Origin: Fibrobacter sp. UWH6
Lineage (GTDB): Bacteria > Fibrobacterota > Fibrobacteria > Fibrobacterales > Fibrobacteraceae
Direction of reading: 5' to 3'
Assembly (NCBI RefSeq): GCF_900142465.1
Contig: NZ_FRAX01000001.1
Span: 1 to 64,000, forward strand
Length of the DNA: 64,000 nucleotides
Numbering within the stretch: the stretch's first letter is position 1; each line of letters begins with the position of its first letter. Shown here in pieces: positions 20,272 to 56,742 of the stretch. Position numbers and translations under genes: made by a program. The notes beneath the pieces were generated by a model. It saw only the letters and a program-made list of their open reading frames with translations. It was not told the origin of the DNA and did no database searches.

Positions 20272-20459
20272 TACTAACCAAATAATCCTGTTTGTGGAAT
20301 TTGGTTAGTAATATTTGCCTCAAAAATCCCGTTTTACAGTCGAATTACTAACCAATTTGGCTAATGGAGCTTGATTGGTTAGTATATTACTTGTTAATTT
20401 GTATTAAATTAGGCGTTTTTTACTAACCAAAATTCCCTTTTTAAGCGGCTTGGTTAGTA
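20272..20459. repeat. Array A: three phased inverted-repeat elements
   Basis: Three 39-bp elements (20272-20310, 20346-20384, 20421-20459). Each consists of TACTAACCAA, exactly 19 variable bases, and TTGGTTAGTA. Arms are identical in all three; the stems extend to 12, 11 and 11 bp. Elements repeat every 74 and 75 bp, about seven helical turns. The inner and linker sequences are unrelated. The array lies between the 3' ends of the xylanase and rlmB-like genes, so it is not in an obvious promoter. Compare arrays B (55570) and C (27066). Confidence 0.85.
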
Positions 20460-36077: not shown

Positions 36078-36296
36078 GTGCTTCCAATCTATTTCTGGTT
36101 CTAGAGAAGGGATGCCGGATCGAACCATACGGGTAGGAATAGATAGGAAGCACACTTGTTCTCTTCTAATTCCACTGAGTCCCGCGGGCTTGTCCCGCGG
36201 GGCTCTTGTGTATTTATGGGAGGGTGTCGGTAAAACACCCTTCCTTGTGTTGTGTACATGTGAAAAAGTCCCGCGGTTTCCCGCGGGACTTCTTCT
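36078..36296 (+). ncRNA. Candidate structured small RNA with four hairpins
   Basis: TATATT (36066-36071) lies 6 bases before GTGCTTCC (36078-36085), which pairs perfectly with GGAAGCAC (36146-36153). Nested inside are ATCTATT/AATAGAT and TGGTTC/GAACCA, so the first 76 bases can fold into one long hairpin that begins at the predicted transcription start. Three hairpins follow: 36177-36205 (12-bp stem with core CCCGCGGG), 36218-36244, and 36266-36291 (11-bp stem AAGTCCCGCGG), the last with a T-rich tail. No credible reading frame. Not recognised as 6S, SRP, tmRNA or RNase P RNA. Confidence 0.5.
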
Positions 36297-36331
36297 AATT
36301 CTGAGTTGAACTCAATTAAACGTTTGGGGCC

Positions 36332-36521
36332 GTGAGCAAAAAAAGACCTCGGTATTAACCGAGGTCTTTTTTAGCGAGAGTGAGGGCCTGCCAGAACTTG
36401 CATTCTGAATGGGCCCGAACGGTCTCCCTGTGAGCAAAAAGACCTCGGTATTAACCGAGGTCTTTTTAGCGAGAGTGAGGGCCTGCCGGAACTTGCATTC
36501 TGAATGGGCCCGAACGGTCTC
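36332..36521 (-). terminator. Tandemly duplicated terminator region behind fusA
   Basis: Two ~92-95 bp direct copies (36332-36426 and 36430-36521) each contain a hairpin GACCTCGG-TATTAA-CCGAGGTC flanked by A- and T-runs (36341-36370 and 36436-36467), plus matching flanks (GCGAGAGTGAGGGCCTGCC). The copies differ at very few bases, so the duplication is recent. The second copy reaches to within one base of the fusA stop. The hairpins terminate on either strand. Confidence 0.85.
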
Positions 36522-36522
36522 G

Positions 36523-38652
36523 TTAAGCGCGTGCGCCAGCCTTGTCGCCGTACTTCTTGATGAGTTCTTCCTGGATGTTCTTGGGAACCGGAGAGTACTT
36601 GCAGAATTCCATGGTGAATTCTGCCTTACCCTGGGTCATAGAACGCAGGTCAGTTGCGTAGCCGAACATTTCGGACAGCGGAACTTCAGCGGTGATGGTG
36701 GTCATGCCCAGTTCTTCGTTAGTACCAGCGATGGTACCACGACGCTGAGAAACGTTACCAACAACGGAACCCTGGAATTCGGTCGGGGTCTGGATTTCAA
36801 CCTTCATGATCGGTTCGAGGATCTGAGCGCCGGCCTTAGCGAAAGCTTCGCGGAAAGCCATACGAGCAGCAACCTGGAAGGCCATATCAGAGGAGTCAAC
36901 CGGGTGGAATGCACCATCCTGAACGTCCATTTCGATACCCACAACCGGGAAGCCGATCAAGGAACCTGCTTCCATGCAGCTCTGGAAACCCTTATCGCAG
37001 GACGGGATGTATTCCTTAGGAATACGGCCGCCAACGACGGAGTTAACGAAGTTGTAAACCTTTTCGGAGTCGCCTTCGACAGCCATCGGACGCATTTCGC
37101 CGACAACCTTAGCGTACTGACCGCTACCACCGGTCTGCTTCTTATGAGTGTAGTCGAACTTGGAAGAACGAGTGATGGTTTCGCGGTATGCAACCTGCGG
37201 AGCACCAGTCTGGACGTCAACCTTGTATTCACGACGCATACGTTCGATGTAAACGTCAAGATGAAGTTCGCCCATACCCTTGATGATGGTTTCGCCAGAT
37301 TCCTTGTTAACTTCAACCTGGAAGGTGGGGTCTTCCTTGGTGAAGCGGTTCAGGGCCTTAGACATGTTGTCCAGGTCGTCACGGTTCTTAGCTTCGATCA
37401 CCAGTTCGATAACCGGGTTAGGAACGTGCATGGAGGTCATGTTGTAGTGGTTCTTGCCATCGGTAAAGGTAGTACCGGATGCGCAGTCAATACCGAACAG
37501 AGCAACGATGTCGCCTGCACCAGCTTCGGTGATATCCACCATTTCATCAGCGTGCATACGAACGAGACGGCCAACGGAAACCTTCTTGGTGGTTGCCATG
37601 TTGGTGATCATGTCGCCCTTCTTGATGGTACCCTGGTAAACGCGGATGTAGGTCAGCTGACCATAGCGGTCGTTGACCAGCTTGAATGCGTAGCAAACCA
37701 GCGGTTCAGCATCTTCGGACTTCAGGACAACTTCTGCTTCGTTGTTGTCGATGTCCAGAGCCTTGTTTTCAACTTCGGTCGGGTTCGGGAGGTAGTCCAC
37801 AACACCGTCGAGGAGCTTCTGGATACCAATGTTCTTGTGAGCGGAACCCATGAACACCGGAGTGATTTCGAGAGAAATGGTAGCTTCGCGGATGGTCTTC
37901 TTGATGAGATCCTTGTCGATTTCATCAACGCCATACATGCCTTCCATAGCCTTTTCCATGATTTCGTCGTTGTAGTCTGCGCAGCAGTCAACGAGCTTTT
38001 CACGGTATTCCTGAGCCTGGTCAACCAGTTCAGCCGGAATTTCCTTTTCGATCATGTCGTCGCCGTTGGCGCCTTCGAAGTAGTAGGCCTTCATTTCAAC
38101 CAGGTCGACCACACCCTTCAGTTGGTCTTCGAGACCGATAGGAATCTGCATAACGCAGGGCTTGTGGTTCAGCTTTTCCTTGAGCATAACTGCAACGCGG
38201 AGCGGATTTGCACCGGAACGGTCGCACTTGTTGACAAACACAACGCGGGGCACATGATAGCGGCGCATCTGGCGGTCAACGGTAATAGACTGAGACTGAA
38301 CGCCTTCCACGCCGGTAAGAACGAGGATAGCACCGTCAAGCACACGGAGAGAACGTTCAACTTCGATAGTGAAGTCCACGTGCCCCGGGGTATCGATGAT
38401 GTTGATGGTGTCAGCTTCGCCAGACTTGGTGTGAGTCCAGCTTGCGAAGGTAGCAGCAGACTGAATGGTAATGCCGCGTTCGCGTTCGAGTTCCATGGAG
38501 TCCATCGTGGCACCGACGCCGTCCTTACCACGAACTTCGTGGATAGCGTGAATACGCTTGGTGTAGTAGAGGATACGTTCGGTAAGAGTGGTCTTACCGG
38601 AGTCGATGTGGGCAGAAATACCAATGTTTCTGTGAGTTGCAATGTTTTTCAT
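36523..38652 (-). CDS. fusA: Elongation factor G
   Basis: 709 residues. G-domain motifs: G1 [19 protein letters not shown]2/G3 [12 protein letters not shown] and [18 protein letters not shown]4 [13 protein letters not shown]. Domains II-V follow, including PEPTIDE-like signature regions [19 protein letters not shown] and [10 protein letters not shown]-like [20 protein letters not shown] drives ribosomal translocation with GTP and helps ribosome recycling. The G1 sequence AHIDSGKTT, not the more common AHIDAGKTT, and the [19 protein letters not shown] block are more like the spd/mitochondrial EF-G1 subgroup; this is impression, not phylogeny. A good promoter and duplicated terminators flank it. 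Confidence 0.97.
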
Positions 38653-55569: not shown

Positions 55570-55791
55570 ATGGGCTCCATTGGGAGGGAAAGTGGTGATT
55601 TGGAGTCCATGATTTTGAATAAATTAGTTGAAAATGGGGCGGTTGAGTAAACTGTAGGCCGGACATTGGACTCCGATATGACCAATATTGTTTATTTGGA
55701 GTCTATATAAATACCCATAACACAAAATCTACTATAGACAAAGTAATTTTATGGGCTCCATTTGCCTACTAACTGACTATTTGGAGTCCAA
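55570..55791. repeat. Array B: three phased inverted-repeat elements
   Basis: Three ~41-bp elements: ATGGGCTCCA (55570-55579) with TGGAGTCCAT (55601-55610); TTGGACTCCG (55666-55675) with TGGAGTCTAT (55697-55706); ATGGGCTCCA (55751-55760) with TGGAGTCCAA (55782-55791). The gap between arms is exactly 21 bases in all three, and start-to-start 31. Elements repeat at 96 and 85 bp. Arms tolerate 1-2 changes; loops are unrelated. Located in the 463-bp region between miaB and the divergent gene at 55912. Confidence 0.8.
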
Positions 55792-55911
55792 AAATCATCG
55801 AAAACTCATTTTGCAACCGTGAAAAAGCTGTTTTTACAAGGCGATTTTTGTAAATTCGTTCTGTGCGTGAGTGCGCACTATTTTGTATATGGCCCATAAC
55901 CAAAGGTATTT

Positions 55912-56742
55912 ATGAAGACTTTGGAACTTTTACCGCCAGATACAATTCTGGCGTCAGTCCAGAAACGTGCAGAAGAACTGCTCTTTATTATAGAAGAAAA
56001 GATGCGCTCTTTAAGTAAGGCGCCAGCGGGGCGAATCAAACTGATTCGTCGTGGCGGGAACATTCACTGCTATCATGTGACAAGTTCAGCAAAACCTGCC
56101 GGTAAGTACATTCCCGTTTCGGAGCAAAAATTCATCAAGGCGCTTATTCAGAAGGAATACGATCAGACGGTTTTAGCGGAACTGCAATATCAGCTAAAAC
56201 TGATAGATAATTTCATAAAGAAGTATAATCCTTCTATGGTGCGGGAATTATTCGGATCCCGCGGAGAATTGCGTCGCAGTTATATCTCTCCGGTAACGCT
56301 ATCCGATGAGGATTATGCGGCCCGCTGGCTTGCCCAATCATACAAGTGCAAATCATTTCGTGAAGGGGAGCCTGAATTTCTCACCAGTCGCGGGGAACGA
56401 GTCCGCTCCAAGTCTGAGATGATTATTGCAGACATCCTGGCGAAAAACAACATTCCTTACAAGTACGAGCTCCCTCAGCAAATGAAGGCCGCGGGCGGCA
56501 AGCTGATTCCGGTCTATCCCGATTTCACCTGCGTGAATCTCCGGACTCGTCAGGAGTTTTTGTGGGAGCATTTAGGACGTATGGATGATTCGGACTACTC
56601 GATGAAAACGGTGATGAAATTGCGCACCTACAGCAAGAACGATTTTATCCCTGGCAAGAATCTGATTCTGACCATGGAATGCGATGGCATCCCGCTGGAT
56701 CGTAAGGAAGTGGAAGCCCTTGTAAAAACCTTTTTGCGGTAG
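55912..56742 (+). CDS. PD-(D/E)XK-like putative nuclease
   Basis: 276 residues. The N-terminal half is helical and charged (LLFIIEEKMRSLSKAPAGR, EYDQTVLAELQYQLKLIDNF). The C-terminal half has VRSKSEMIIADILAKNNIPY (Glu), PVYPDFTCVNLRTRQEF (PD) and LWEHLGRMDDSDYSMK, which together read E...PD...(D/E)x(K/H), the restriction-endonuclease-like fold. Relatives are single-domain proteins of unknown role, sometimes fused to helicases. No toxin, methyltransferase or phage gene is next to it. Array B lies immediately upstream. Function not established. Confidence 0.65.
   Translation: MKTLELLPPDTILASVQKRAEELLFIIEEKMRSLSKAPAGRIKLIRRGGNIHCYHVTSSAKPAGKYIPVSEQKFIKALIQKEYDQTVLAELQYQLKLIDNFIKKYNPSMVRELFGSRGELRRSYISPVTLSDEDYAARWLAQSYKCKSFREGEPEFLTSRGERVRSKSEMIIADILAKNNIPYKYELPQQMKAAGGKLIPVYPDFTCVNLRTRQEFLWEHLGRMDDSDYSMKTVMKLRTYSKNDFIPGKNLILTMECDGIPLDRKEVEALVKTFLR

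Follow-up and report, generated by a model that had tools for sequence, protein, structure and literature searches.

An apparently undescribed bacterial system of helically phased inverted-repeat arrays matched to copies of a PD-(D/E)XK-like protein

Transcription factors can bind cooperative, helically phased operator arrays, which are built from inverted half-sites at a fixed spacing and phased by whole turns. MITEs are short non-coding units with inverted arms at their ends, and they vary in presence or absence between relatives. Tn7-type ends contain several protein-binding sites, and TnsA has a nuclease fold of restriction-endonuclease type. In REPtrons, a TnpA-REP (RAYT) gene is bordered by palindromic REP/BIME repeats, solo repeats occur in intergenic DNA, several families are found per genome, and protein and repeat co-evolve (PMC8266576, PMC3116915).

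The arrays studied here belong to a widespread and apparently undescribed bacterial system, in which paired DNA words recur at whole helical turns and each wording is matched to its own copy of a nuclease-like protein. The open-access literature on Fibrobacter repeats, phased inverted repeats and nuclease-linked repeats contained nothing matching. Like REPtrons, the system has a gene bordered by repeats, solo intergenic copies, several families per genome and co-evolution. In contrast to RAYT, a HUH/Y1 transposase, the partner protein is PD-(D/E)XK-like. The repeats consist of 9-mer pairs that enclose a free interior of 20–21 bp, not of GTAG-tagged palindromes or hairpins of 20–50 nt, and several such elements make up an array with whole-turn helical phasing. 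No GTAG-type tetranucleotide was found in the aligned array flanks. Lacking both an HUH/Y1 match in its protein and GTAG-tagged hairpins among its repeats, the system is not a REPtron member, although REPtrons are the closest to it in behavior.

The inverted half-sites at fixed spacing and the whole-turn phasing are shared with phased operator arrays, but here the arrays are genome-wide, including between convergent genes, the protein has a nuclease-like domain, and the arm sequence of an array, which we call its address, changes at fixed loci. Both MITEs and the arrays are short, do not code for protein, end in inverted arms and are present or absent between relatives; the arrays differ in that no target-site duplication was seen, copies have little similarity to each other, and internal palindromes lie at phased spacing. 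Several putative protein-binding sites and a nuclease-like domain recall Tn7-type ends, but here there is no recurrent transposase-type neighbor gene and no cargo, and solo arrays occur. A CRISPR array, which would have identical direct repeats and unique spacers beside cas genes, is excluded by the inverted pairs, the phased unconserved spacers and the lack of recurrent neighbor genes.

The window analyzed is a stretch of 64,000 nucleotides from the genome of Fibrobacter sp. UWH6 (G000), and the features in it are listed in Table 1 together with related arrays of the same genome. The three elements, the gap of 21 and the two pitches given for array B in the original prediction were confirmed. 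Each element reads TGGRCTCC[A/G]-N21-TGGAGTC[C/T]A, which can be summarized as TGGRCTCCA-N21-TGGAGYCYA, and the interior is exactly 21 bp in three of three elements. Array B scores 50 out of 54 in a triple-array finder, compared with a background maximum of 39 across 0.8 Mb taken from elsewhere in the same genome, and with a laxer finder spurious matches reach only 44 in 1.5 Mb scanned. The array is far beyond chance expectation. Array A, for which the same plan with different arms had been proposed, is real; its plan is identical to that of array B, its pitches are 74 and 75, and the two arrays have CCA-N21-TGG in common. The presence of a PD-(D/E)XK-like gene downstream of array B was also observed correctly (it starts about 120 bp away), and its family recurrently adjoins arrays; miaB, which had been mentioned as well, is an incidental neighbor.

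Table 1. Positions of arrays, motifs and genes. Positions without a prefix are those of the window; C-prefixed positions are those of the same genome.
Feature	Position	Strand	Details
Array A	20272..20459	.	elements 20272-20310, 20346-20384, 20421-20459; TACTAACCA-N21-TGGTTAGTA
Array B element E1	55571..55609	.	arms TGGGCTCCA 55571-55579 and TGGAGTCCA 55601-55609; interior 21 bp
AT-rich motif M1	55618..55626	.	AATAAATTA; from 29-array alignment
Array B element E2	55667..55705	.	arms TGGACTCCG and TGGAGTCTA; 96 bp past E1
AT-rich motif M2	55734..55746	.	ATAGACAAAGTAA; directly 5' of E3; from array alignment
Array B element E3	55752..55790	.	arms TGGGCTCCA and TGGAGTCCA; 85 bp past E2
Partner gene	55912..56742	+	276-aa protein; from family loci, alignments and structure model
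B-address arrays (pitches)	C1:55571 (96,85); C3:236311 (96,85); C4:27214 (96,85)		
B-address arrays (pitches)	C4:248961 (95,85); C5:61001 (85,86); C17:61243 (85,95)		
A-address array and gene copy	array C5:111218-111427; gene C5:111446		array at 3' end of gene

A whole-genome pattern search revealed six arrays with address B, with three elements in each, and eight with address A, some of which contain a decayed element. An address-free pattern, CYA-N21-TRG-N17-AAAYTAA, was built on M1 and run over 18 Fibrobacter genomes, where it matched 33 places, compared with 9 for a reversed control. The addresses obtained with it are GGTTACTA (E), GGGGTACYA (D), TAGTACTA (C) and TGGGACCA (G). Address E, the third in this genome, is present in at least four arrays. 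Scanning without a given address covered about 1.5 of 3.9 Mb of the genome. Arrays that differ in address but follow a common plan do form a family, as proposed (A, B, C, D, E and G), but the idea that each array has its own address does not hold. One address is common to about 4–8 arrays per genome, one of which adjoins a copy of the partner gene, and all three addresses that have solo arrays here (A, B and E) are also found in an array beside a family gene.

An alignment of 29 arrays from several species defines the common plan. The elements have 9-bp arms and an interior of 20–21 bp without conservation, with AA/TT at the interior edges and a T-then-A tract outside the outer arms. The AT-rich motifs M1 (after E1) and M2 (before E3) stand at fixed offsets, and M1 is common to arrays with different addresses. 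Three inverted pairs had been taken as a fixed number; 3–8 elements per array were seen. The pitches are confined to about 53, 64, 74–75, 85–86, 95–96 and 105–106 bp, which are whole helical turns, in agreement with the proposal that one turn is the unit. For 48 pitches in 24 arrays that were found without a pitch filter, R is 0.954 with a best period of 10.48 bp and a Rayleigh p of about 1e-19, a value to be read as a guide, as some of these arrays may share ancestry. At partner-gene loci, using a finder without pitch filter or arm requirement, R is 0.916 at 10.5 bp (n = 82 pitches). Whole-turn phasing characterizes double-stranded DNA that is bound along a single face.

In this genome, gene copies stand beside arrays with address A on C5, B on C1 and E on C27; the address is D in G009, G025 and G078, and G in G007. 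Three family copies in this genome (C2:20248, C7:10312 and C5:131603) have no detectable array. Among 30 fetched family loci, arrays were found in 23, with scores of 43–53 and many new addresses, against a background maximum of 39 in 0.8 Mb. With a finder filtered for the CYA end and pitch, 31 of the best 80 GTDB loci score at least 40, compared with none in shuffled sequence; two of the 31, L317 and L325, scored only 41 and 43 and were excluded from the layout list. The unfiltered finder places a triple-dyad array upstream of the gene in 41 of 70 loci with a complete gene, compared with one control stretch. The array is situated just upstream of the gene in most members and on both sides in some, with differing addresses, and in most family loci it starts about 200–650 bp upstream. 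Phased tandem units that do not have the CYA-type arm end are present at L282, L283, L285, L287, L292, L312, L325, L334 and L336 (Treponema, Clostridia), which suggests that the array plan varies more widely.

The partner protein consists of an N-terminal domain (about residues 1–140) and a C-terminal PD-(D/E)XK-like domain (about residues 160–276). In the AlphaFold2 model (pLDDT 96), the N-domain contains a helix (12–35), strands (41–47, 50–56 and 65–67) and a long helix (72–104). Searched alone, the N-domain gave no significant fold match and no informative relative among solved structures. The best PDB match of the whole model with Foldseek is DrdV (E 8e-3), and MunI is also found (E 8e-2), both weak. 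Residues Glu-169, Asp-204, Glu-219 and His-220 of the C-domain are invariant in 67 sequences. The canonical PD-(D/E)XK lysine is not conserved at its usual place (WEHxG), so that catalysis by the partner protein is uncertain. No Pfam or NCBIfam family matches the protein. The PADLOC profile PDC-S68 matches its C-terminal half only (E 1.5e-24); a C-terminal nuclease-like domain is common to both, but PDC-S68 is about 1200 aa, and the N-domain lies outside the matched part. When the partner protein was searched across the genus, this genome proved to have six copies, and 50 of 80 genomes had matches. Among GTDB genomes at least 582 relatives were found, in Fibrobacter, Treponema and Lachnospiraceae/Clostridia; the family is present in gut and rumen bacteria of at least three phyla. 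No recurrent neighbor gene or defense-gene neighborhood was found at family loci, and viral contigs contained no full-length homologue, their partial matches falling mainly in the C-terminal half.

The address was compared with the two domains in 33 independent protein/array pairs, with the N-domain taken as residues 1–140. Arm distance correlates with N-domain distance (r = 0.32, 0 of 5000 permutations), also when the C-domain is accounted for (partial Mantel 0.31, 0 of 5000), and there is no residual correlation with C-domain distance (−0.09, p = 0.89). The correlation with the N-domain is independent of any single locus. A column-by-column co-variation test gave no clear separation of the N- and C-domains. 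At the lysC locus, the array and residues 1 to about 130 have been replaced together, and the remainder of the protein is near-identical. Array and N-domain are likewise swapped together at the miaB locus, where the C-domain is kept. The reverse case is seen between G076 and G077, with the same array and N-domain and a different C-domain. Because the array adjoins the N-terminal end of the gene, the co-swaps can be explained by linkage. The evidence is indirect, but it supports well that the arrays are recognized by the partner protein in an address-specific manner, which we regard as very probable.

The arms were predicted to be conserved among close relatives, and over eight orthologous array comparisons identity is 95.6% in the arms, compared with 89.7% in interiors, 88.3% in spacers and 86.7% in flanks. 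One and the same locus can carry different addresses. Downstream of glyS, there is a B array in G000 and G066, a C array in G076 and a single B element in G009; in G024 the downstream gene is present and the array is absent. Upstream of miaB, the address is B in G000, G024, G077 and G076 and D in G009, G025 and G078. Solo arrays are intergenic and differ between species, as at a convergent site with an array in G076 and none in G000. Their neighboring genes have every orientation, and by the gene calls made in this analysis, with a few orthologues entered twice, they are convergent in 10 of 29 cases compared with 27 of 173 background intergenic regions. None of the empty sites showed a clean insertion with target-site duplication; the species compared have diverged too far for exact ends to be read. 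No empty site was found for the array A locus in relatives because the neighbor genes differ there.

Same-address arrays in this genome are not near-identical copies. When B arrays were compared, only about 60 bp (E1 plus M1) could be aligned between two of them, at 80%, and recent copying inside this genome is therefore not seen. A MITE reading by whole-array similarity was rejected on this basis; near-identical pairs that flank the gene are found elsewhere. At L293, from a Fibrobacter, the gene is flanked by array copies that are 97.6% identical over 335 bp, with identity beginning and ending at the outermost arms and no target-site duplication seen. These limits of identity indicate that the array behaves as a discrete unit. 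L265 repeats this pattern (80% over 312 bp). Direct repeats also flank the partner gene at L338 (94.8% over 290 bp), L309 (71% over 289 bp) and L262 (74%, within 250–290 bp), and they are probably further flanking arrays. At L270 (Treponema), positions 2165-2868 contain eight 95-bp array units in tandem that are about 72–81% mutually identical; arrays can thus grow by unit duplication.

Architecture, phasing, co-location, co-variation, co-swapping and presence or absence were all computed directly. They are best explained, at a probability of roughly 0.55, by an array that is a platform bound by the partner protein, within a dispersed system resembling REP/RAYT. Its protein would be unrelated to RAYT and its array architecture new. 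The array would serve as a binding platform for the PD-(D/E)XK-like protein encoded beside it, a dimer using its N-terminal domains to read the inverted arm pair of every element. With whole-turn spacing the elements would all face the same side of the DNA, which would let bound dimers assemble with each other; binding by the N-domain as phased dimers is the most likely arrangement. The gene and its own array would form one unit, with gene-less array copies scattered in intergenic DNA, and paralogous units with different addresses could coexist because N-domain and arms diverge together. As in REPtrons, the arrays may be dispersed units that are copied or maintained with help of the protein. 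Such copying is suggested by the duplicated units, by the dispersal of arrays and by their gain and loss between species, and the odds of a mobilization step by the partner protein fall just short of even. From its position, the upstream array may plausibly control the partner gene itself as well. The protein may also cleave its arrays. More tentatively still, the arrays could represent an undescribed mobile-DNA or genome-marking system across phyla, in which one PD-(D/E)XK-like protein disperses and maintains phased arrays and its N-domain sets the specificity. A modular, fast-evolving N-domain would then read a short variable arm word beside the more conserved CYA-type end.

Alternatively, the protein could act as a DNA-binding regulator, its nuclease-like domain being inactive or playing a secondary part, with the upstream array as its own operator and solo arrays as regulon operators or chromosome-organizing sites. 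The upstream position of the array in most family loci fits a regulator, as do the glyS loci, where the array appears from the sequence to lie just upstream of the probable promoter of the next gene, and arrays are conserved as sites and not as copies. We nevertheless consider a regulator unlikely. The A-address gene copy in this genome has its array at the 3' end, the glyS array was lost in G024 while the gene was kept, and array copies ending at the outer arms resemble mobile units. The frequent location of solo arrays between convergent genes speaks against it too and weakens a promoter-only reading of the arrays. The arrays might instead be ordinary mobile repeats of the MITE or REP type that are mobilized by another enzyme, the PD-(D/E)XK-like gene being a passenger or an insertion-prone neighbor. 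Although dispersal, intergenic location and presence or absence are typical of such repeats, neither the co-variation of address and N-domain nor the co-location of array and gene in three phyla is expected for a passenger, which makes this very improbable.

A nuclease for defense or genome marking, with arrays that hold it, titrate it or signal self while DNA without arrays is attacked, is improbable. The resemblance of the C-terminal domain to PADLOC candidate defense proteins and the fast turnover of addresses between species make a defense role possible, if thinly supported, but that similarity is limited to the C-terminal half, species do without particular arrays, and family loci lack defense genes and a recurrent partner gene. 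The chance that the arrays are RNA hairpins acting in transcripts, an option of the original prediction, is close to negligible. Array B does fold better as RNA than shuffled sequences (z −4.1), and several of the differences between arms are of the G-C to G-U kind; good folding is, however, expected of any inverted repeat. Arm substitutions in the array B orthologues of G076 and G077 occur without a matching change in the opposite arm, and Rfam gave no match, which together speak against a structured RNA. Quantization of the pitch at the helical repeat is meaningless for RNA and points to bound DNA.

The preferred reading, a platform bound by its partner protein, concerns an unannotated protein family in at least three phyla that is linked to a DNA architecture without match in the open-access literature. 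Should the protein move or copy arrays, they are dispersed bacterial repeats of a new kind, served by an enzyme of their own. If binding is all it does, the protein is an unusual phased regulator that acts at many sites and whose specificity diverges. A true cross-phylum system would be a HUH-independent counterpart of REPtrons with a recognition code that might be deduced from genome sequences. As every protein has its site next to it, hundreds of natural protein–site pairs could be read from genomes, which makes such a code testable.

Between array B and the gene (55791-55912) there is a second possible inverted motif, GTGCGTGAGTGCGCAC / GACACGAGTGTGCC, followed by a likely −10 box. Motif and likely −10 box recur at the D-array locus of G009, G025 and G078, and thus with both address types. 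Two solo arrays of this genome, L001 (C5:61001) and L212 (C28), adjoin restriction-like genes, which encode a 138-aa HSDR_N_2 protein (PF13588) and a large restriction/modification-like protein. A match in the window at 36263 was a duplicated terminator, so its reading as an array was dropped. At 36320-36525, a terminator-like hairpin, AAAAAGACCTCGGTATTAACCGAGGTCTTTTT, and about 60 bp 3' of it are duplicated in tandem, the two copies lying about 96 bp from each other.
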